A DNA stretch of 64,000 nucleotides from Proteiniphilum propionicum (GTDB lineage Bacteria; Bacteroidota; Bacteroidia; Bacteroidales; Dysgonomonadaceae): NCBI RefSeq assembly GCF_022267555.1, contig NZ_CP073586.1, positions 310,001 through 374,000 of the forward strand. Reading direction: 5' to 3'. Position 1 is the stretch's first letter, and each line of letters begins with the position of its first letter. The position numbers and the translations under genes are program-made. Below are positions 1-44,068 of this stretch, piece by piece. The notes under the pieces were generated by a model that saw nothing but the letters and a program-made list of their open reading frames with translations, made no database searches and was not told the origin of the DNA.

Positions 1-1215
1 CAAAAAGACAAGCAATATTAACGATATTCCTGAAGCGTATATAATGGTCCTCTTTTGTCGCGCTACCATCTCGTTACGAAGATTCAGGCCCGATATGTAT
101 TGCATGTTTTTATCACTTTCGTAATTTTGACGTACATCAATCACCTTATTATATTTCTGCATATTCTGAATACTGTCCTGAAATTGTTGGCTTTTCTTAT
201 AATTGCTTAATGCTGTAGCGTAATTACCACGTTTAATATTATACTCATGGAGCAAATTATAAACTTCTGCGAGATGTTTTGGCGACTGAATGGCTTTGGC
301 TGCCTTATCAGCAATTCTTATATACCTTATAGACTCAACAGAATCATTTTTAAGCAGCATTATACGAGCAATGGCTAAGGTTGAATTCAGCCAGTGCCAT
401 GTATCTGAAATATCGCTCAGTATATTATATGCCATCAGATATTCACGTTCTGCCTTATCATACTCGTTCTTTAGCTCGTAAATATGTCCTAAGTGAATAT
501 AACACAAGCCTATTCCCAACTGCGATTTAGCTAGCATGTTCTTTTCCAAGGAACGTTGATAATATGCAAACGCTGAATCATACATCAGCTTTTTTTCAAT
601 AACAGTACCAATATTTGCATAATTCATGGCCTGACCAAGATTGCTGCCCAATGTTATTTCCTCCGCCAGTGCTTCCTTGAACATCCTCTCGGCTTCATCA
701 AGATTTCCAAATGAGAGGTGAACATTACCGATTCCATTAATTGCCATGGCACGGCTTTTACGACCAACATATTCATTTTTAGCCGAGAAGGACTCGGCCA
801 TCTGAAGTGCCTGATAATGATAATCGGAAGCTTCGGGCAGAGCCTCTATTCTCCTAAAGTTGGTCCCGATATTATTGAGAGCCTGAATAATGCCGATTGT
901 ATCATTTATCTTGTAAGCTGCAACTAGACCTTGCTGGTGATATGAAATAGCTTTAGAAAAATCTGAAGCTTCCCGCATCCTTTCCCCCAGCACCTTACAG
1001 AGCACGGATACTGCCAAGTTATCACGATCGATAACGCTTTTCCCCAAAAGCAGCCTGATTGAATCTGTAGGAAAACTATCGTCCGAAATCTTCTCTTCCC
1101 AGATTCTTTTCTGATCATACATGAGTTGCTGCTGTTTTTCATTTTCCGAACAGAAAAAAAACAAGGAAGTTATCAGCAGGAAAAATCCTGCATTGATAAA
1201 CAGTTTACACCACAT
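1..1215 (-). CDS. TPR-repeat membrane sensor protein (3' end outside window)
   Basis: An uninterrupted reading frame of 405 codons runs off the left edge, so the C-terminus is missing. The chosen ATG (complement of 1213-1215) is followed by a hydrophobic export signal at about residues 4-21 that ends in SLFFFC; the cysteine could be lipidated, but the box is not canonical. The middle is built of tetratricopeptide repeats, seen as recurring A..YY.....A and LG..Y patterns at roughly residues 70-350. A membrane helix begins near residue 390 (IIYASGISLILLVF). Bacteroidales proteins of this plan usually end in a cytoplasmic LuxR-type HTH or histidine kinase domain, which would lie outside the window. 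A GTG at 1260 is an in-frame alternative start. The signal is not known; the histidine kinase gene at 6256 has the same plan. Confidence 0.72.
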   Translation of the reverse strand, partial: MWCKLFINAGFFLLITSLFFFCSENEKQQQLMYDQKRIWEEKISDDSFPTDSIRLLLGKSVIDRDNLAVSVLCKVLGERMREASDFSKAISYHQQGLVAAYKINDTIGIIQALNNIGTNFRRIEALPEASDYHYQALQMAESFSAKNEYVGRKSRAMAINGIGNVHLSFGNLDEAERMFKEALAEEITLGSNLGQAMNYANIGTVIEKKLMYDSAFAYYQRSLEKNMLAKSQLGIGLCYIHLGHIYELKNEYDKAEREYLMAYNILSDISDTWHWLNSTLAIARIMLLKNDSVESIRYIRIADKAAKAIQSPKHLAEVYNLLHEYNIKRGNYATALSNYKKSQQFQDSIQNMQKYNKVIDVRQNYESDKNMQYISGLNLRNEMVARQKRTIIYASGISLILLVFL

Positions 1216-35881: not shown

Positions 35882-36826
35882 TCAAACACCTTCAATCTTT
35901 ATGCCAATATCCCCATACCTTAATTTCATGATAACCCTTCTTATCCATACTACCAGCCAGGCAGCCACAAATCTGACTCCAAGTATCCACCAGATTGAAA
36001 CACCAAGTGCAACGAACAAAAGATTGTCTTCCAGAACAGAGTGAGATACAGCAAGGTGATAATTCAGCAGGCTTGCATCGGTTCTTGTCACCTTTCCCTC
36101 CCTCATCTGATCCATCATCAGCGCCCCGCCATAAGCCAGACCCACTATATAGCCGATAAGCCACAGGAATCCTGTACTCTCCGGCAATCCAAAAAACTTC
36201 AATATGGGTGCTATTCCCCTGCTTAGTTTGGGAATAAGTTTATAAGCCTCTAGAATGTTATACAGCAAATTCAACATAAACACTATAGAGGTTATAAGCA
36301 GCGCAATACTCATCGAACTCTTCAGCCACGCAAGCAACACATCTGCCACGGAGTTCATGGCTTTTACGCCGACATGTGAGAAAACAGGCATACCCATGTT
36401 TTGAGGGAGAATAAGGTTCAGCACCACACCGGTAATTATACTCATTGCAATCCGCAATATTGACATAGACCAGAACGAAGTACCTGTCTTTGCCTGAATA
36501 GCACTCTCCACGGGAAGGTTATGAGATATCTGGCACATCAGCGCAAGTATGGTCAGTTCCCTCAGCGTAAGGGGCATTGATGTAATAATTGCCAAAGGGG
36601 CATAGAGAGGTAGAAAAATACTTGTAATGAAAACAATGGCCGTACTTCCGGGCAAGCCCATATATACAAAAACCGGGTCAAGAAATTTGGCTAAATAGGC
36701 AAGGGCTCCAAAATAGTCCAGGAATCTGACTGCCAAGGATATCGGAAGAATTATTTTAAGCAGCCACAGGGTTGTGTAGCCCGATTTTTTTACAGCAGGG
36801 AAAAATATATCGTTTCTAAACTGCAT
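35882..36826 (-). CDS. Nucleoside-recognition (Gate) domain membrane protein
   Basis: A 314-residue inner-membrane protein with about eight hydrophobic helices. It has two Gate-type halves: ILPISLAVRFLDYFG....FLDPVFVYMGLPG early, and ILKFFGLPESTGFLWLIGYIVG (spread over about 215-236) late, with HNLPVESAI between. The family (SpmA/SpmB, YjiH-like) is believed to transport or recognise nucleosides or ions; no substrate is proven. It is an isolated gene between smpB and metH. Its overall plan, a fused two-Gate protein, is common in Bacteroidota. Confidence 0.82.
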   Translation of the reverse strand: MQFRNDIFFPAVKKSGYTTLWLLKIILPISLAVRFLDYFGALAYLAKFLDPVFVYMGLPGSTAIVFITSIFLPLYAPLAIITSMPLTLRELTILALMCQISHNLPVESAIQAKTGTSFWSMSILRIAMSIITGVVLNLILPQNMGMPVFSHVGVKAMNSVADVLLAWLKSSMSIALLITSIVFMLNLLYNILEAYKLIPKLSRGIAPILKFFGLPESTGFLWLIGYIVGLAYGGALMMDQMREGKVTRTDASLLNYHLAVSHSVLEDNLLFVALGVSIWWILGVRFVAAWLVVWIRRVIMKLRYGDIGIKIEGV

Positions 36827-36963
36827 TGATAAATACGAAAATTAAGTAAATAAAAACTCTACAAGTATAAAGCTATGAAATATGGTAATAAGTGATTCTT
36901 GTGATGATACACAACTCTCAGTTGTGCGTGCATTAAAACATAAAATTTGTCAGTAAGAGCTTA

Positions 36964-37416
36964 TTACTTTTTAAACATCCTGTCCATATCCCTCTTATCC
37001 TCCTTCTCTTTCAGTGACTGCCGTTTGTCGTACTGCCTTTTTCCTCTGGCCACTGCAATCACCAGCTTTGCCAGTCCTTTCTCGTTAATGAACAAACGAA
37101 CGGGAATAATTGTAAATCCTGTCTCCTTGGTCAACCGTGAAAGTTTTCGCAGCTCGTTCCTGTTAAGCAACAGTTTCCGGTCGCGGCGAGCATTGTGATT
37201 ATTATAGGTGCCGTAAAAATATTCCGATATATGCATATTACGCACCCATAATTCGCCATTTTGGAACAAACAATAGGTATCCACAAGGCCAGCCTTGCCT
37301 AAACGGATCGATTTTATCTCAGTACCTGTAAGTACAATACCTGCAGTGAAAGTCTCAACCAGTTCGTAGTCGAACGTGGCACGCTTGTTCTTTATATTTA
37401 TTGGAGCTTGCTTCAT
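36964..37416 (-). CDS. smpB: SsrA-binding protein SmpB
   Basis: A 150-residue oligonucleotide-binding protein needed for tmRNA rescue of stalled ribosomes. Typical blocks are NKRATFDYE at the start, [13 protein letters not shown], ...[12 protein letters not shown], and the C-terminal basic tail ([24 protein letters not shown] over the last 40 residues), which enters the mRNA channel. Length is normal. It follows copy B of the 109-bp element and the second Yip1-type gene; the tmRNA gene is not in the window. Confidence 0.97.
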
Positions 37417-37508
37417 ACGATTATATTATTTTTTACATCAAGGTGAACAGCACTCGCTGCAATAATGTAGCCTTTCCTGGAAACATTTTGCCTGCAAGTT
37501 TCATTATT

Positions 37509-37616
37509 GAGTTCCCTCCGAAAAGTCTCTATTATTAAAATAGGATCAAAATAGCTGTTGATATTCAATACATTACGAATGGTCATTCTTTATATTTTGA
37601 TTTCAGGAACGGACTC
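37509..37616. repeat. 108-bp intergenic element, copy B
   Basis: Starts GAGTTCCCTCCGAAAAGTC and ends ...TTCAGGAACGGACTC, an inverted match to the start. The palindromic core GTTGATATTCAAT (37557-37569) lies at offset 48, exactly as in copies A and C. It directly abuts the stop codon of the minus-strand Yip1-type gene (37618). Confidence 0.65.
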
Positions 37617-37617
37617 A

Positions 37618-38169
37618 TTATTTTATCAGGAATGAAAAGAGAATATTCACAAGTGCAGGCGTCAGCATTACCAGCGCCGATGCCATAACGGTAAAATTTG
37701 TACGTTTATCCTCCGGAACTTTAATATAAAGCTGTGCCCCGGTGTTCACCAGATGTATAGTGTAAAATGCAAGTAACCATAAAATGAAAAAACCTGGAAG
37801 AAAAGGAATAATGATGTACAGCAGATAAATCACCACTGAAGAATATCCTACAAAAAATTGGAACTCTGCTAAATTTTTTTTCAGCCCAAACCGGGGAGCT
37901 GTTTCATTCAGGATATATGACACTAAAAAATACCCCCCATACACAGCTACTATGTTAATAATAGTGTTTTTCAACGCATTCTCAAGACCTCCGTTGCGCG
38001 TAAACCATAAACCGCCAACAAAAGAGGCAAGTGCAATTATCCCAAAAACAGGGTGCAGGAAGCGGTAGAGGAAGTCATTCTGCGTTCTCTCTTCCCTTTC
38101 AATATATTTCCATTCTTCGGGAGACGCAACAATCAACTGCACGATAGTTACAAAAATATCTCTCCACAT
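37618..38169 (-). CDS. Yip1-family membrane protein (second copy)
   Basis: A 183-residue membrane protein with five hydrophobic helices after a short start containing IVASPEEWKYIEREE, the 'P.EW..I' opening shared with the gene at 3129-3713 (FTPKDEWSVIE). A conserved YSSVVIYLLYIIIPFLP region follows. The two are diverged paralogues in the same window. The role of bacterial Yip1 proteins is unknown; membrane-stress or secretion links are speculative. The stop codon abuts repeat copy B. A start further downstream is not supported by the helix pattern. Confidence 0.75.
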   Translation of the reverse strand: MWRDIFVTIVQLIVASPEEWKYIEREERTQNDFLYRFLHPVFGIIALASFVGGLWFTRNGGLENALKNTIINIVAVYGGYFLVSYILNETAPRFGLKKNLAEFQFFVGYSSVVIYLLYIIIPFLPGFFILWLLAFYTIHLVNTGAQLYIKVPEDKRTNFTVMASALVMLTPALVNILFSFLIK

Positions 38170-38233
38170 TACTTTTTGATTTTGGATTGCAAAGGTAACG
38201 AATTCCGATTAATATTTAGAATGTGAGAGAGAT

Positions 38234-38273
38234 AAAAAAAGCAGCAACTACTTTTTTTCAGAGTAGTTGCTGC
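38234..38273 (-). terminator. Intrinsic terminator of the sigma-Dma-NigD unit
   Basis: A perfect 11-bp stem (GCAGCAACTAC 38241-38251 with GTAGTTGCTGC 38263-38273). On the minus strand it is followed at once by seven U residues: a classic Rho-independent terminator, 23 bases after the NigD-like stop codon. Confidence 0.85.
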
Positions 38274-38295
38274 TGATTAGACGAGGTTGTTCGGC

Positions 38296-39030
38296 TTAAT
38301 CTCCGGCAACTCTCATTTTGTAAACATTTGAATCTACAATGTCGTTGCGGTTCTTCAAATAGTATCTGAACTGAATCTTTATATCTTTAGTATTGGTTTG
38401 GCTTGTTCCTTCATACATAGCACGTATAGGTGCCATATTCAAAGCAATGATATCCGAACCTGAAGTTGTTGAAGCGCCTGCTTCAGGTGTTCCGTCTATA
38501 ACAAGATGAATTTCAATAAATACTTCATCGTCATTGGCTCCTTCCTTGTTAATTTTATAGAACTCCAGTGAGACAGTCTGTCCCTTTTTGTACTCATAGG
38601 CATATTGAAACAGCCAGTGATCACCCAGGTATATCTCGTCTGCAGCATAATAAGGAGGGTCTATAGCTAAAAACTTATCAGGTGTTTCCACTACAGGTGG
38701 ATCGGCCATTATCAGATCTGCACGACTTATCAGCTTTGGATCGCCTGAAATCACCACCTTATCAGCATACTTATCTCCAATTTTTTCTTCTCCATACTCC
38801 TCTTCCCAGCTATAGCGAAGAAACTGAAAAGTACCCGGAGTCATCCCCTGCATTTGTGCAGAGGTTATTAAGCGCCCGGTAAGGGTTCTTCCATAAATTT
38901 TTGATGATGCGTTATCCATAGCAATATAGGCTACGGAAGCTTCTGAATAGTTACTGTTTCCATCCCCAAGGCAGGAAGTCAACAGAAGAGTCATGCCGAT
39001 TATGGCAAGAAATAAATTCGTTTTTTTCAT
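38296..39030 (-). CDS. NigD-like lipoprotein
   Basis: A 244-residue lipoprotein (lipobox LLTSC, Cys20). After a Gly/Asn/Ser linker comes a beta-rich region (AYIAMDNASSKIYGRTL...GRLITSAQMQG, about 33-58), compatible with the N-terminal OB-like fold of NigD-type proteins, followed by a second beta domain (about 120-244). The NigD assignment is by size, lipobox, layout and genomic position rather than by an invariant motif. It follows the Dma-like gene by 34 bases on the same strand and precedes a strong terminator, so it is the last gene of the sigma factor operon. In Bacteroides thetaiotaomicron a NigD protein is the reported output of the Dma1 pathway. Confidence 0.6.
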   Translation of the reverse strand: MKKTNLFLAIIGMTLLLTSCLGDGNSNYSEASVAYIAMDNASSKIYGRTLTGRLITSAQMQGMTPGTFQFLRYSWEEEYGEEKIGDKYADKVVISGDPKLISRADLIMADPPVVETPDKFLAIDPPYYAADEIYLGDHWLFQYAYEYKKGQTVSLEFYKINKEGANDDEVFIEIHLVIDGTPEAGASTTSGSDIIALNMAPIRAMYEGTSQTNTKDIKIQFRYYLKNRNDIVDSNVYKMRVAGD

Positions 39031-39064
39031 TTTCTAATCTTTCAATATTTTGTTAATTCGTATA

Positions 39065-40366
39065 TTAAAACTCATACCTGAGCCCTATGTTCAGATCCAT
39101 CACGATCTTGCTGTCGGAATAGATAGTCTTGTATTCATTTTTTGCATCGAAATAGTATGCTCCGCCTATTTTTCCATACAGCTTCAGAGAGTTATATATA
39201 GGAAATGAAACTCCAACACCGGCGTTGACCGAGATCTGTGGATTGTGTTGTGAAATTTTCTTAACCTCTTTCTCTTGAGATGAACTGTTGAGATCCAACG
39301 CCTGCCCCTCTCCTGTTCTCCGGAATTCACCATATATATCTTTCTCTATTATGCCGCCTACAGAGGCATAAACATCTAACTTACTTAAAGAGAAAAGATT
39401 GTAATTCACGTTTAAAGGTATCCCCAGATAGTGAAGGCGCTGCGTTTCATGTACCTGAAAATTTGAGTTTTTATTTCGTGTTTTGGAGTAAAGAGAGGTA
39501 TATATCAGGCCGGTCTCAATAGATAGATTATCTAACAAGGATTTAGATACCGTAATACCAAACGATACCGGCTGGTCGTGCTCCATTTCCGAAATATTAT
39601 CGGCAGTATTGTTTGCCTGCAATAACATCTTATTGGGTTCGCCGGAATATTGGCTTTCAGGGGCTACGGCCGCACTTCGCAGGGTCATGGGCGAATTCAC
39701 CGTTTGATGAAAAGAGGTTAACCCGCCCCTTCCGCTAAGTGTCAGCACAATATTTCCATTATCATTGTGAGATGACACATTTTCTGCAAACAACCCTTTT
39801 TGTCCTTCCACCACAATAAGCTCATCAACCAACAACCTTTTTCTCTGATTTTCCTCTGATTGACGCAATACCCGCAATGCGTCTGAGTCAGGCACTCTTG
39901 CCATGCCGCTGCGGGTTGAACTCTCACGGCGCAGCATGGACTCAATAATCCCTGATGGATCGGATGGGCGAACGGGGTTAATTCCCTTTCTTATTGCTGA
40001 ACCCGATACATACTGCTTCACTTTGCCAGGGTGAGTAACAATAGCCTGTTTCAATGTTTCGGGCTGTTTTTTAATTTCTGCACCGCTACCGGGTTTTATA
40101 TCTATTTCCGGAGTTGTTAAAGCAGATTCCGAAATAAGGGAATTACTTTGATCAACCTGGTTCCGGAAGAAAAGCACAGTACCTATCAACAAAACAAGGA
40201 CAGCAGCAGCAGTGCAGGTGTACCATCTGCGCCGTACTGCAACCCTGGCTGCAGCATCAATCTTCAGCGATTGTTCCAGCATGCTCCATCCATCATCAGG
40301 GACTGATGCCCGGAAATCACTGAATTTCGACTGAAACTCCCTTCTAATATCGTTATCTGAATTCAT
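39065..40366 (-). CDS. Dual membrane-spanning anti-sigma factor (Dma-like)
   Basis: A 433-residue protein with an unusual plan and no signal peptide. Residues 1-47 are a soluble helical segment (DIRREFQSKFSDFRASVPDDGW) ending in Arg-rich residues; 48-67 are a single membrane helix (TAAAVLVLLIGTVLFF). Residues 68 to about 260 are a low-complexity, Ser/Pro/Gln-rich linker, and about 265-433 are an eight-strand barrel-like domain ending in a C-terminal Phe (LNIGLRYEF), the usual BAM targeting end. The positive-inside rule puts the N-terminus in the cytoplasm, so the chain must cross both membranes. This matches Dma proteins, which sense outer-membrane state and hold a sigma factor. The sigma gene ends 6 bases upstream. 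Confidence 0.8.
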   Translation of the reverse strand: MNSDNDIRREFQSKFSDFRASVPDDGWSMLEQSLKIDAAARVAVRRRWYTCTAAAVLVLLIGTVLFFRNQVDQSNSLISESALTTPEIDIKPGSGAEIKKQPETLKQAIVTHPGKVKQYVSGSAIRKGINPVRPSDPSGIIESMLRRESSTRSGMARVPDSDALRVLRQSEENQRKRLLVDELIVVEGQKGLFAENVSSHNDNGNIVLTLSGRGGLTSFHQTVNSPMTLRSAAVAPESQYSGEPNKMLLQANNTADNISEMEHDQPVSFGITVSKSLLDNLSIETGLIYTSLYSKTRNKNSNFQVHETQRLHYLGIPLNVNYNLFSLSKLDVYASVGGIIEKDIYGEFRRTGEGQALDLNSSSQEKEVKKISQHNPQISVNAGVGVSFPIYNSLKLYGKIGGAYYFDAKNEYKTIYSDSKIVMDLNIGLRYEF

Positions 40367-40372
40367 TTATAG

Positions 40373-40930
40373 TTACTGTTGCTTTTTTAATATGGCTGAA
40401 ATCTTCTTCTGTAATATGCTCTTTGCCCTAAATAATTGTGACCGTGACGCTGCCTCTTTTATGCCCAGCATGCGGGCGATCTCTTTATGTGACAACTCCT
40501 CAAAAATATACAGGTTAAAGACTGTTCTATATCCGGCAGGAAGATCCCTTATCATCTCCAGAACCTTCTCACGTGGAATATTTCCTATATCAAGAATATC
40601 ATCCTCCGGCATGTTGGCTTCTCCACCATGTATATATCGATATTCTTCCATAAACCGGTATTTTTGCTTCTCTTTCCTGTAGTTTTCCAACGCCAGATTT
40701 ACAAAAATCCGCCTCATCCAGCCTTCAAAAGAACCCCTGCCCGAATATGAGCATATCTGCGTAAAGACCCGGATGAATCCATCATGCAAGAGATCGCGGG
40801 CTGTTTCCTCATCGCCGCTGTAACGCATACATACCGCCATCATTATAGGTGCATATTGCTCATACAACATTTTTTGAGCATTACGATCCTGTTTCTTACA
40901 TGCAATTATCAGTTGCGAATCATCCATCAT
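40373..40930 (-). CDS. ECF RNA polymerase sigma factor
   Basis: A 185-residue group-4 sigma factor. Region 2 (about 15-90) has the core-binding and -10 parts (ARDLLHDGFIRVFTQI...SFEGWMRRIFVNLALENYRK). Region 4 (about 120-180) has LPAGYRTVFNLYIFEELSHKEIARMLG split by a turn, then SQLFRAKSILQKK. Such sigma factors act only when released from an anti-sigma partner; the next gene, 6 bases downstream, is the Dma-like membrane protein. The pair plus the NigD-like gene forms one unit ending at the terminator 38234-38273. No standard -33/-7 pair is evident upstream, compatible with autoregulation by another promoter type. Confidence 0.93.
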   Translation of the reverse strand: MMDDSQLIIACKKQDRNAQKMLYEQYAPIMMAVCMRYSGDEETARDLLHDGFIRVFTQICSYSGRGSFEGWMRRIFVNLALENYRKEKQKYRFMEEYRYIHGGEANMPEDDILDIGNIPREKVLEMIRDLPAGYRTVFNLYIFEELSHKEIARMLGIKEAASRSQLFRAKSILQKKISAILKKQQ

Positions 40931-41118
40931 TATCGCAGTTCATTAAATAGATGAGAAAAAAGAAAAAACGCTGCACTGACAGCCCTGTTTTTACCTCTAT
41001 TTAGCTTTTTTTAAGTAATTATTTACCCCACTTATGATTAAAATTATTTTTAATCATCAAAATTAGTACCACGCCAAGGAAATACCAAGTGAAATTAATT
41101 AAGAATATGTAATTTTAA

Positions 41119-41150
41119 ATTGTAGAGTAACTCTTTTTTCTTTATTTTTG
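41119..41150 (+). promoter_or_regulatory. Promoter of sppA-lpxK-pnp-thiL
   Basis: ATTG (41119-41122) and TATTTTTG (41143-41150), spaced by 20 bases, match the Bacteroidota promoter. The sppA ATG follows 28 bases later. Confidence 0.6.
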
Positions 41151-41178
41151 TCCTGTTAATCAACTAAAAATTATTTCT

Positions 41179-42954
41179 ATGAAGGATTTTCTAAAAATCA
41201 TGCTCGCGTCTGCTTTGGGATTTATCATCGCAAACGTAATCTTTTCTTTGATTGCAATGATCTTCTTTTTCGGAGCAATGGGATCAGTTATTGATTCTAT
41301 ATCTTCGGAAAAATTCTCTCTTCAGGATAATTCGGTTTTAAACCTGCGATTAAGCGGCCCTATAAATGAACGTACCCCCGAGCAGGACCCGTTCACATCG
41401 ATGATCAGTCGCGACGAAACCCAGCCAATTGGCCTGAACGACATTGTAAGTGCTATCCGAAAGGCCAAAAGCAGCGATAAGATCAAAGGCATCTACCTGG
41501 ATTCGCGCATGATGTCGGCCTCCATGGCTACACTGGCCGAAATCCGTCAGGAACTGCTTGATTTCAAGGAGAGCGGCAAATTTATCGTTTCATACGCCGA
41601 CATATATACACAGAGTGGTTATTACCTTGCCTCCGTAGCCGATAAAGTAGCAATCAATCCCAAAGGGATGCTCGACCTGCACGGGCTGGCCGCCACACCC
41701 ATCTTCTTCAAGGATGCCCTTGACAAGCTGGGAATAGAGATACAGATCTTTAAGGTCGGCACCTATAAATCGGCCGTGGAGCCGTACACACAAAACGAGA
41801 TGAGCGAAGCAAACAGAGAACAGCTGACCTCCATTCTGAATGACGCCTGGAGTTTCCTTAAAAACGATTTTGCCGAGTCGCGTTCACTCACTCCTGCCGG
41901 TATAGATTCTCTTGCCAACTTGCTGCCGTTGATCCGGGAAACCGATTTTCTACTTTCTTCCAATCTTGTAGATACGCTTCTTTATGAAACAGAGATGAAG
42001 GATTATCTTCGCTCGTTACTGAATATCGAAAAAAACAAAAAAATTCCATCGGCAACGGTAGCAAACATGAAATCGGTAAAAACTAAAACAGTCAAGAAAA
42101 CCGATAATACAATTGCTATCCTCTATGCAGTTGGAGAAATCATTTCCGGTAACGGCTCATCCGGTATCCAGGATAAATATATTGTGGATCAGATTGAAAA
42201 ACTGAGGATGGATGAAGAAATAAAGGCAGTGGTATTCCGCATAAATTCAGGTGGAGGGAGTGCCTATGCTTCAGAGCAGATCTGGAAAGCGATCAACGAC
42301 CTGAAGTCAGAAAAGCCGGTAGTAGTTTCCATGGGCGACATGGCTGCCTCCGGAGGGTATTATATCGCCTGCAACGCCGACAAAATAGTTGCCCAGCCTA
42401 CAACCCTAACCGGATCGATAGGGATATTCGGCACCATACCTAATTTAGAAGGTACATCCAAAAAAATAGGAGTAAATATCGATGAAGTAAAAACAAACGA
42501 GTTTTCAGATTTCGGGAATATTTCACGTCCTTTAAATGATAAAGAGAAACAGATGTTTCAGACAATGATAGAGCGGGGGTATGACCTCTTTCTAACGCGT
42601 TGTGCCGAAGGGCGTGATATACCAAAAGACTCAATGGCTCTCTACGCCGAAGGACGTGTATGGACAGGAAATCAGGCAAGACAAATTGGTCTTGTTGATG
42701 AATTGGGTGGTATTGAGAAAGCGATTGAAATTGCTGCCGATCTGGCTAACCTGGGAAAAAGCTATGTAGTTTTTGAATATCCCAGGCTACGATCAAGATT
42801 CGATGAGTTGTTGAACCCTTCAAAAGAGGATTTGGCCGCCAAAACTCTTAAAGAGTATCTTGGCTCAAGTTACGATCTGTTCATGCTCCTGAAAAATATT
42901 AAAGAACAGGATTACCTACAGGCCAGAATTCCTTTTGATCCGAACATTAAATAA
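41179..42954 (+). CDS. sppA: Signal peptide peptidase SppA (67K type)
   Basis: A 591-residue membrane protease that degrades cleaved signal peptides. One N-terminal membrane helix (about 7-33) anchors it, with two tandem ClpP-like S49 domains in the periplasm (about 55-290 and 315-560). The catalytic serine lies in MGDMAASGGYYIACNAD in the second domain and the general-base lysine in the first, near GTYKSAVEPYTQNEMS. The double-domain length matches E. coli SppA. First gene of a four-gene run with lpxK, a purine nucleoside phosphorylase and thiL. Confidence 0.95.
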   Translation: MKDFLKIMLASALGFIIANVIFSLIAMIFFFGAMGSVIDSISSEKFSLQDNSVLNLRLSGPINERTPEQDPFTSMISRDETQPIGLNDIVSAIRKAKSSDKIKGIYLDSRMMSASMATLAEIRQELLDFKESGKFIVSYADIYTQSGYYLASVADKVAINPKGMLDLHGLAATPIFFKDALDKLGIEIQIFKVGTYKSAVEPYTQNEMSEANREQLTSILNDAWSFLKNDFAESRSLTPAGIDSLANLLPLIRETDFLLSSNLVDTLLYETEMKDYLRSLLNIEKNKKIPSATVANMKSVKTKTVKKTDNTIAILYAVGEIISGNGSSGIQDKYIVDQIEKLRMDEEIKAVVFRINSGGGSAYASEQIWKAINDLKSEKPVVVSMGDMAASGGYYIACNADKIVAQPTTLTGSIGIFGTIPNLEGTSKKIGVNIDEVKTNEFSDFGNISRPLNDKEKQMFQTMIERGYDLFLTRCAEGRDIPKDSMALYAEGRVWTGNQARQIGLVDELGGIEKAIEIAADLANLGKSYVVFEYPRLRSRFDELLNPSKEDLAAKTLKEYLGSSYDLFMLLKNIKEQDYLQARIPFDPNIK

Positions 42955-42955
42955 A

Positions 42956-44068
42956 ATGGGCAAACCTTCCGTCGAATTCCGTCGATCACTGCTGCCGTTA
43001 TCATGGCTGTACAAAGTTGGGGTGAACTTTCGGAATGCACTTTTCGACAGAAAAATACTCAAACAAAAGAGTTTCAATATTCCTGTTATCTGCGTAGGTA
43101 ATATCACTGCAGGAGGTACAGGAAAGACCCCGCATATTGAATATCTCATAAAATTGCTCTCCCCCGGGTATAAGGTCGCCGTTCTGAGCAGGGGATACAA
43201 ACGTAGTAGCAAGGGTTTTATGATTGTTAATACCGATTCAAAAGCGAACGAAGCGGGTGATGAACCTTTACAAATAAAGCTGAAGTTTCCAGATACGCTC
43301 GTCGTGGTTGACAAAAACAGGGTAAACGCAATTGAAAAGATACTTAGCATTGATAAAAAAGAGAGGCCAGATGTGATTTTGCTCGATGATGGATTTCAGC
43401 ACCGGTATGTACAGCCCTCGCTATCCATTCTTCTGGTAGACAGCAACCGTCCTGTGTTCGAAGACCGACTGCTTCCTGCGGGGATGCTTCGCGAGCCGTT
43501 GAAAGGGAAAGACAGGGCATCTATCGTACTGGTTACCAAATGCAATCCTGACATGCAGCCAATCGACTTCAGGATTTACACGAACGGGTTGAACCTGTAC
43601 CCTTACCAGAAGTTGTTTTTCACATCACTCGATTATGGCACAGTCAGGCCCGTCTTCTCCGAAATCAGGGAAGACCGTTATCTATTGGACGATCTACGAA
43701 AGAAGCACGTGTTTCTTGTTACCGGTATTGCTTCACCTCAACCGCTGGTAGAGAAGCTTGAGCATAAGACATACAATCTCTATACGCGTTTTTTCCCCGA
43801 TCACCATTTTTTCAATGATGCTGATGTGCAATCCATTCGTGAGCAGGTTGAATCATTGGAAGATGATAACAAGATCATTCTCACAACGGAAAAAGATGCC
43901 GTACGTTTCAGGGCGTTGCCTTTTCTGGATGAGGAGATAAAAAAAATACTCTATTACATTCCCGTTCGCATAACATTTATAGATGAGAAAGAAAAAGAAT
44001 CATTTAATAAGAAAATATTAGAACATGTTAGAAGCTATCAAACAAACAGCAGATTATCTGAAGAGTAG
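42956..44068 (+). CDS. lpxK: Tetraacyldisaccharide 4'-kinase
   Basis: A 370-residue lipid A biosynthesis enzyme that phosphorylates the 4' position of the disaccharide precursor. Its P-loop is GNITAGGTGKTPH (about residues 47-59), followed by VAVLSRGYKR and the DDGFQHRYV motif. The ATG is one base after the sppA stop; an in-frame TTG 21 bases upstream lies inside sppA and is rejected. Its 3' end overlaps the phosphorylase gene by 44 bases in another frame. It acts at the inner membrane's cytoplasmic face. Confidence 0.95.
   Translation: MGKPSVEFRRSLLPLSWLYKVGVNFRNALFDRKILKQKSFNIPVICVGNITAGGTGKTPHIEYLIKLLSPGYKVAVLSRGYKRSSKGFMIVNTDSKANEAGDEPLQIKLKFPDTLVVVDKNRVNAIEKILSIDKKERPDVILLDDGFQHRYVQPSLSILLVDSNRPVFEDRLLPAGMLREPLKGKDRASIVLVTKCNPDMQPIDFRIYTNGLNLYPYQKLFFTSLDYGTVRPVFSEIREDRYLLDDLRKKHVFLVTGIASPQPLVEKLEHKTYNLYTRFFPDHHFFNDADVQSIREQVESLEDDNKIILTTEKDAVRFRALPFLDEEIKKILYYIPVRITFIDEKEKESFNKKILEHVRSYQTNSRLSEE

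Follow-up and report, generated by a model that had tools for sequence, protein, structure and literature searches.

Does the envelope switch known from gut Bacteroides, in which an extracytoplasmic function (ECF) sigma factor is paired with a dual-membrane anti-sigma factor and NigD-type lipoproteins are an output, occur in Proteiniphilum propionicum, and which genes would it control there? The question is raised by a three-gene operon in a 64,000-nucleotide (nt) window of this genome, encoding an ECF sigma factor (sigma-A), an anti-sigma factor of the Dma/Reo kind (Dma-A) and a lipoprotein (LipA). Coordinates are positions in the window, which corresponds to C1:310001-374000 of a genome comprising one 3.9-Mb contig. 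From the genes, their order and conservation, the predicted folds and the conservation of a promoter, we describe the circuit as a variant of the Bacteroides switch that is conserved within a family, and we think it likely to be an envelope-stress circuit of the EcfO-Reo or Das-Dma kind with output genes of its own.

The three genes occupy 38296-40930 on the minus strand and form a single unit closed by a strong hairpin. Sigma-A (185 amino acids, 40373..40930) is separated by 6 nt from Dma-A (433 amino acids, 39065..40366), and Dma-A by 34 nt from LipA (244 amino acids, 38296..39030), as read from the open reading frame list. Downstream lies an intrinsic terminator with a U-tract (38233..38274, minus strand), whose hairpin at about 38274-38240 folds at -22 kcal/mol (z -5.4), with none of 200 shuffles equally stable; a consensus terminator scan had no entry for it. 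The predicted ECF promoter of the operon (40948..40974, minus strand) reads GCAGCGTTTT-N11-CATCTA, lies 17 nt 5' of the sigma-A ATG and matches exactly the motif discussed below. A sigma-70 promoter scan was uninformative (7 sites, with 11.7 expected from shuffles), and Rfam at gathering thresholds gave no match in 36500-43500.

Sigma-A matches Pfam Sigma70_r2 (E 5.5e-14) and Sigma70_r4_2 (E 2.1e-15), and among NCBIfam models only general ECF models scored above cut-off (TIGR02937, E 5e-26). The sigma partners of Dma and Reo proteins are placed in group ECF21. In Dma-A, an N-terminal cytoplasmic part (about 1-46) is followed by a transmembrane helix (about 47-69), a disordered linker (about 70-202) that is poorly conserved among 30 aligned homologues, and a barrel (about 258-433), with a possible additional strand at 206-223. 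Hydropathy shows one peak within 47-71, after an RRR; the top 19-residue window (49-67) scores 2.21 and all others fall below 1.6, from which we infer a single inner-membrane helix and a cytoplasmic N-terminus. Residues 246-433 match Pfam OMP_b-brl (E 2.5e-7). The AlphaFold model is weak overall (mean predicted local distance difference test score, pLDDT, of 57, and below 50 in the linker, 68-202), with strands at 258-432; of the 18 ten-residue blocks that run from 261 to the C-terminus, 15 reach a pLDDT of at least 70. VIA-align superposes the barrel on the eight-stranded barrels of OprF (Z 13.0; 132 residues, 3.1 Å), NspA (12.3) and OmpA (11.8). The terminal residue, F433, is invariant in the 30 aligned homologues, some of which carry one extra Lys.

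These results bear out much of an earlier note on this DNA, made from sequence alone. It had claimed three open reading frames in one co-directional unit with a strong terminator, on which coordinates, hairpin and synteny agree. It had also claimed a protein with one inner-membrane helix, a disordered linker and a Phe-ended barrel, and the structure prediction it proposed as a check returned an OmpA-type barrel. Assignment of Dma-A to the Dma/Reo type is likewise supported by the anatomy, the adjoining sigma gene and homology to a paralogue whose neighbour elsewhere in this genome is a true NigD; binding and inhibition of sigma-A by Dma-A are predicted. Just before the barrel, the stretch GRGGLTSF-QTVNSPMTLRS (Dma-A 213-231) is near-invariant in Proteiniphilum type-A Dma proteins, is kept in Petrimonas, and is absent from paralogues B and C and from genome G344. 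It is followed by an EHxxP motif whose H263 and P266 are invariant in all 19 Dma proteins of a second alignment. The stretch and the motif are a possible signal-sensing element.

LipA has a lipobox, LTSC, at residues 17-20 (LLLTSC20), with S19-C20-L21 invariant in 29 sequences, and its AlphaFold model is confident (pLDDT 88, predicted template modelling score 0.81), comprising an N-terminal OB-like domain and a C-terminal beta sandwich. A Foldseek search of the PDB returned 20 matches at E<=0.001, all of them chains of 5bmt, 3nqi, 4pqx, 3k0y, 3k6o, 3qwn and 4j8q, with template modelling scores of 0.44-0.59 by query length. VIA-align gave Z 12.7-16.0 to the same seven structures over 175-209 residues at 7-13% identity (16.0 to 5bmt, 13.4 to 3nqi, and 12.7-15.0 to 4pqx, 3k6o, 3k0y, 4j8q and 3qwn), the following row dropping to Z 6.5. 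Sequence searches with the true NigDs of this genome also hit the last five of these structures. As for the remaining pair, 3nqi is BF3042, with an OB domain listed as Pfam PF22221 ('NigD_N-like, Lipoprotein BF3042 OB domain'), and 5bmt (PARMER_03598), the best structural match, is itself uncharacterised.

By sequence, the picture is different. LipA has no match at E<=1 to Pfam NigD_N (PF12667), Pfam NigD_C (PF17415) or NigD in NCBIfam, none of 29 LipA orthologues matches Pfam NigD at that threshold, and the genome's three Pfam NigDs are located elsewhere. A sequence search of the PDB gave chance matches only. Profile comparison of LipA with NigD by hhalign gave probabilities of 3.5-5.9%, which are not significant, against 0.25-0.49% for reversed-alignment controls. 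Because the fold matches while the sequence evidence does not, we label LipA, on its modelled structure, a NigD-fold lipoprotein and keep it out of the NigD family. The earlier note's NigD call is thus supported for the fold, on AlphaFold, Foldseek and VIA-align, and not for the sequence. Like the NigD family (PF12667/PF17415) and the BF3042 type (3nqi), LipA is a lipoprotein with an N-terminal OB domain and a C-terminal beta sandwich; it differs from them in its low identity in structural alignments and the lack of a profile match. We also considered LipA and NigD as one sequence family, since iterative hidden Markov models (HMMs) from both sides reached the same 119 proteins. This was rejected: once signal peptides were removed (with the cut set at residue 30 in the 96 of 201 proteins where no lipobox was recognised), the mature-region clusters stayed separate at 34 and 77 proteins, so the convergence reflects shared signal peptides.

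Candidate outputs of the switch emerge from the promoter. We derived the motif GCARCKTTTT-N11-CRTCTA from sigma-A upstream regions alone and tested it elsewhere afterwards. It is exact upstream of sigma-A in 29 of 30 loci and one base off in the remaining locus, L019. The host genome has two exact sites, one at the window operon and the other at C1:1181202-1181228, 48 nt 5' of the ATG of a second true NigD, which we call NigD-X (L041, 5154-4420). The motif recurs in 38 of 39 same-genus genomes, which together hold 70 exact sites compared with 2 for the reversed pattern. These 70 precede 33 sigma-A operons, 14 nigD-X genes, 11 genes for a microprotein, seven lipoproteins of a radical-SAM (S-adenosylmethionine)-associated type and five others, namely a small lipoprotein, a Big_2-type lipoprotein, a 445-residue protein, a probable envelope protein and a contig edge. 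Sites were assigned from the loci read and from coordinates, the radical-SAM-associated class by eye with one member checked (TIGR04134, E 1.1e-26).

Among NigD-X genes collected by Pfam search, all 35 have a site within one mismatch, 28 with spacer 11 and seven with spacer 12. The same two-spacer test found none at NigD-B (0/26) or NigD-Y (0/7). At spacer 12 with one mismatch, the host genome has 3 sites and the control 1. Outside the genus, NigD-X-like genes recognised by eye keep a site within one mismatch in four of eight cases (Petrimonas sp. IBARAKI, two metagenome-assembled genomes and G266), 23-34 nt 5' of the ATG; none of 2000 shuffled windows did so. Four further sites in the host genome have one mismatch. 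One of them (C1:121589-121615, minus strand) lies before a gene with an MG2 domain (alpha-2-macroglobulin-like), and another (C1:3109862-3109888, minus strand) before a 446-residue protein without assignment, a similar protein (by eye) having an exact site in G025. Behind a one-mismatch site at C1:3878032, a scripted search found no gene start.

The microprotein provides a check on the motif from a class of genes that played no part in building it. It has 45 residues in the host (G000:C1:3089113-3089247, minus strand; L401, with homologues at L385-L414) and 44-47 overall, with a single membrane span and a conserved HFQ-[LI]-F C-terminus (11/11 loci), and its gene lies upstream of serS. Of the 39 same-genus genomes, 37 encode it, and neither Pfam nor NCBIfam gave a significant match (best E 0.022 and 0.019, respectively). 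The gene was readable in 28 of 30 returned loci, and the motif occurs within one mismatch in the 250 nt upstream of 26 of these 28 (nine exact; the exact site in G007 is one that precedes this gene). Ten of the 28 were first found via their site; among the other 18, 16 have the motif within one mismatch. Shuffled windows gave none in 3000. Because the motif was built without these genes, their sites argue strongly that it marks a genuine promoter; sigma-A is its predicted reader.

The window pair is not the only one of its kind in the genome. The anti-sigma search found three sigma-Dma pairs, the window locus (A) and two more. Locus B (C1 near 3.63 Mb, L039) has the order NigD, immunoglobulin (Ig)-like gene, sigma, Dma, and its NigD-B is the top Pfam NigD of the genome (NigD_N E 1.1e-23, NigD_C E 1.2e-39). 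Locus C (C1 near 0.69 Mb, L040) has the order sigma, Dma, LVIVD-repeat lipoprotein. Operon B has a different upstream element in most genomes, TGCAAGRTTT. In Phocaeicola vulgatus, the locus numbers given in PMC13114119 and PMC9308784 are nigD 03762, ecfO 03761 and reo 03760. Since locus B has the arrangement that these numbers imply, the window locus, judged by gene order, is a second branch and not the genome's canonical EcfO-Reo-NigD system. The Ig-like gene between NigD-B and sigma-B (L039, 7106-7678, minus strand) has two domains (Pfam T2SS-T3SS_pil_N and Big_2), and in G012 (L252) a weakly Big_2-like lipoprotein stands behind a site of the sigma-A type; Ig-like proteins may therefore be members of sigma-Dma regulons.

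How far does the triad extend? The closest relatives of Dma-A in named records (36 loci) are mostly labelled Proteiniphilum, a genus of the family Dysgonomonadaceae, including P. acetatigenes DSM 18083 (L094), with some labelled Fermentimonas or unplaced and one Petrimonas. The type-A anti-sigma factor occurs in 33 of 36 other same-genus genomes, in two of the 33 as two aligned pieces. The order sigma, Dma, lipoprotein is kept in all 29 other same-genus loci read; a contig end truncates one of the lipoproteins. In nine loci outside the genus, from five same-family genomes and four named records (Petrimonas sp. IBARAKI and three metagenome-assembled genomes not placed further), sigma, Dma and LipA stand together in every case, with mature-LipA profile matches of E 5e-7 to 7e-77. 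The first gene past the terminator encodes a Yip1-domain membrane protein (37618..38169, minus strand; Pfam Yip1 E 3e-8) and, given that position, is probably outside the unit. It is next in 27 of the 29 same-genus loci, and the Yip1 profile has no match in any of the nine outside loci. Because sigma-Dma-LipA is kept in 9/9 loci outside the genus while Yip1 was not found there, we take the triad to be the conserved unit. The earlier note had suggested that the whole pathway travels as a module outside Bacteroides: the triad is indeed kept, and its distribution looks vertical.

Weak LipA matches in six genomes outside the family (E 9.8e-4 to 2.8e-5) were not used, as they mostly cover the N-terminus; those in G328, G218, G388 and G254 reach at most position 82, and those in G229 and G117 cover 1-137 and 1-126. 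At the G328, G229 and G218 loci a lipoprotein is present in a related setting. Two loci from two other families (L141 and L142) have an orphan lipoprotein of similar size before what by eye are a Yip1-domain gene and smpB. No sigma-Dma pair adjoins it, which would fit loss of the pair from an ancestral sigma-Dma-lipoprotein-Yip1-SmpB arrangement.

That these anti-sigma factors occur across Bacteroidota is already in published work, and we counted what stands beside them. Of 393 Bacteroidales genomes sampled, 133 matched a mixed Dma profile at E<=1e-10, in some cases via the N-terminal part only. The count covers 89 loci from 75 genomes, namely 29 returned besides the window's own and 60 mostly from the upper list, so that the sample is not random; the host's family contributes seven. 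A co-directional sigma gene lies just upstream of Dma in 86 of the 89. A protein of the mature-region NigD cluster, which includes iteratively added members and is more liberal than Pfam, adjoins the sigma-Dma genes at 42 of the 89 loci, drawn from 14 families and 35/75 genomes: downstream in 26, upstream and co-directional in seven and upstream and divergent in ten, one locus having two. Chance adjacency is estimated at well below 1%, given two or three NigDs in some 3000 genes. The association outside Bacteroides that the earlier note proposed is thus real and wide. The other downstream neighbours are LVIVD lipoproteins (12), LipA-profile proteins (five, in the host family only), lipoproteins of similar size (eight), other same-strand genes (17), none or an opposite-strand gene (20) and a contig edge (one). 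The LVIVD-repeat lipoprotein, of about 425 amino acids and directly downstream at L040 as well as in these 12 loci, is a second recurrent partner, and we regard its loci as a separate branch of Dma circuits.

Taken together, the circuit is most likely an outer-membrane stress switch. At rest, sigma-A would be held by the cytoplasmic tip of Dma-A, with the OmpA-type barrel predicted to sit in the outer membrane and the disordered linker to cross the periplasm. When the outer membrane or the assembly of barrels is disturbed, a signal may then pass inward, as this placement of barrel and linker suggests, and may release sigma-A. Free sigma-A would read GCARCKTTTT-N11/12-CRTCTA promoters, raising its own operon in a feedback loop that also yields LipA. 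Expression of the unlinked NigD-X and of the 45-residue membrane protein encoded before serS would rise as well, as would, in certain species, that of a lipoprotein of the radical-SAM-associated type. The lipoproteins among these outputs would work at the cell surface or the outer membrane, presumably in remodelling or vesicle shedding. By analogy with the published systems, such a role is plausible for LipA and NigD-X.

Several observations weigh against this account. LipA and NigD are not joined by sequence, as the two mature-region clusters do not overlap at all (0 proteins shared), and the N-terminal 60 residues of the Dma-A model are of low confidence and unreliable. Spacer 12 was admitted for nigD-X only after seven genes had failed at spacer 11. 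Four of the eight NigD-X-like genes outside the genus lack a clean site (G169, with 3 mismatches, and G061, G344 and G408); the sigma-A operon promoters of these four genomes have also drifted. Weaker targets are out of reach, since at up to 2 mismatches the host genome yields 33 sites for the motif and 22 for its reversed control. Finally, the type-C operon shares the -35 and has a -10 resembling that of operon A; the loci examined carry GCAACGTTTT-N12-CGTCAT or CGTCTT. Given this likeness, crosstalk between A and C is possible and their regulons may overlap.

The shared -35 also lends some weight to the idea that the GCARCKTTTT promoter is read by several ECF sigma factors, such as sigma-C, in which case NigD-X and the microprotein would be members of a common envelope regulon and not specific to the window circuit. 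We see this as a real but lesser possibility, since the -10 differs (CRTCTA), loci B and C carry no site even at 3 mismatches with spacer 11, and the sigma-A operon itself has the motif in nearly every locus. The lack of any Pfam NigD match among LipA orthologues, the separate HMM clusters, the low hhalign probabilities and the moderate Foldseek scores fit the suggestion that LipA is no relative of NigD and shares merely an OB-plus-sandwich architecture, the only NigD link of the circuit then being the unlinked NigD-X. This seems unlikely to us. LipA matches all seven structures over its full length, five of them sequence relatives of NigD, with a steep drop in score afterwards; its hhalign values exceed the reversed controls, and NigD-profile lipoproteins occupy the same operon slot in 26 of 89 loci.

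A Bacteroides thetaiotaomicron system could suggest another output. According to PMC13088901, Dma2 acts without raising NigD1 and its co-operonic genes are dispensable for the vesicle effect, so the presence of a Dma protein is not by itself a sign that NigD drives vesicle formation. The window circuit might likewise tune mainly glycan-use or other surface genes, with vesicles affected only indirectly and without NigD. In the host genome (L041), nigD-X is followed after about 0.5 kb by a same-strand gene for a SusC-like TonB-dependent receptor, so the regulon may include more than lipoproteins and nutrient genes are possible members. However, the predicted regulon contains a true NigD and a NigD-fold lipoprotein, and by eye there is no SusC or SusD among the first genes read behind exact sites, which makes the Dma2-like scheme distinctly improbable. 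Even less credible is a separation of barrel and anti-sigma part by proteolysis, leaving no single chain across both membranes and each part to act independently. A disordered, poorly conserved linker would suit such cleavage, but both parts share one reading frame in 30 of 30 aligned homologues, and published Dma and Reo proteins are described as spanning both membranes in PMC13088901, PMC9308784 and PMC13114119.

Within the preferred reading, an envelope-stress switch with its own outputs, LipA might itself be part of the switch, binding Dma from the periplasmic or outer-membrane side and setting or resetting the signal. We offer this as a speculative and rather doubtful extension. If true, each paralogous sigma-Dma circuit would own a private NigD-type partner (NigD-B for B; LipA and NigD-X for A), which would explain why roughly one in two of the Bacteroidales sigma-Dma pairs examined has a NigD-type neighbour.

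We found no description of a Proteiniphilum or Dysgonomonadaceae version of the sigma-Dma-lipoprotein circuit in the literature searched. Four elements go beyond the literature seen. One is a lipoprotein partner whose NigD fold sequence profiles miss, and another is the prediction of a specific promoter, with its regulon, for one branch of Dma circuits. The microprotein and the tally across Bacteroidales of NigD genes adjoining Dma complete the list. Likely target genes of the switch can now be named, and the small predicted regulon provides a system outside Bacteroides for testing what NigD-type proteins do for a Dma switch.

Three known systems invite comparison. The Das2-Dma2 operon of B. 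thetaiotaomicron (BT_1555-BT_1559), which is strongly induced when the anti-sigma factor is lost, is likewise a sigma-Dma pair with downstream accessory genes. These encode DUF4943, DUF4858 and an enoyl-ACP reductase-like protein, without a NigD-fold lipoprotein, unlike the window operon. Das1-Dma1-NigD1 of the same species comprises a sigma factor, a dual-membrane anti-sigma factor and a NigD-type lipoprotein output. There, vesiculation has been shown by mutants, and earlier work, as relayed in PMC13088901, found NigD1 to be required for the extra vesicles of a dma1 mutant; here a link to vesicles is presumed, and the co-operonic lipoprotein is NigD by fold only.

The third system, EcfO-Reo (P. 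vulgatus M0N98_03761/03760; Bacteroides fragilis), likewise has an ECF sigma gene followed by an anti-sigma gene whose product has one inner-membrane span and an outer-membrane barrel, with nigD genes in the regulon, as predicted for the window circuit. According to PMC9308784 and PMC13114119, toxins that damage the envelope induce EcfO-Reo in P. vulgatus, where the system drives expression of three nigD genes. Evans et al. (PMC9308784) saw induction of the sigma gene and of nigD genes upon exposure to toxin, as well as partial resistance to two toxins and a longer O-antigen in P. vulgatus mutants of the Reo-type anti-sigma factor. PMC13114119 ranks three nigD genes with the most strongly transcribed genes of P. 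vulgatus in the monocolonised mouse gut and shows that EcfO-dependent NigD is made in the mouse gut and released. In P. vulgatus, nigD (M0N98_03762) lies beside the pair, an order inferred from locus numbers, and paralogue B has that same NigD-sigma-Dma order in the host; the window pair instead has LipA downstream and would reach a NigD through an unlinked promoter.

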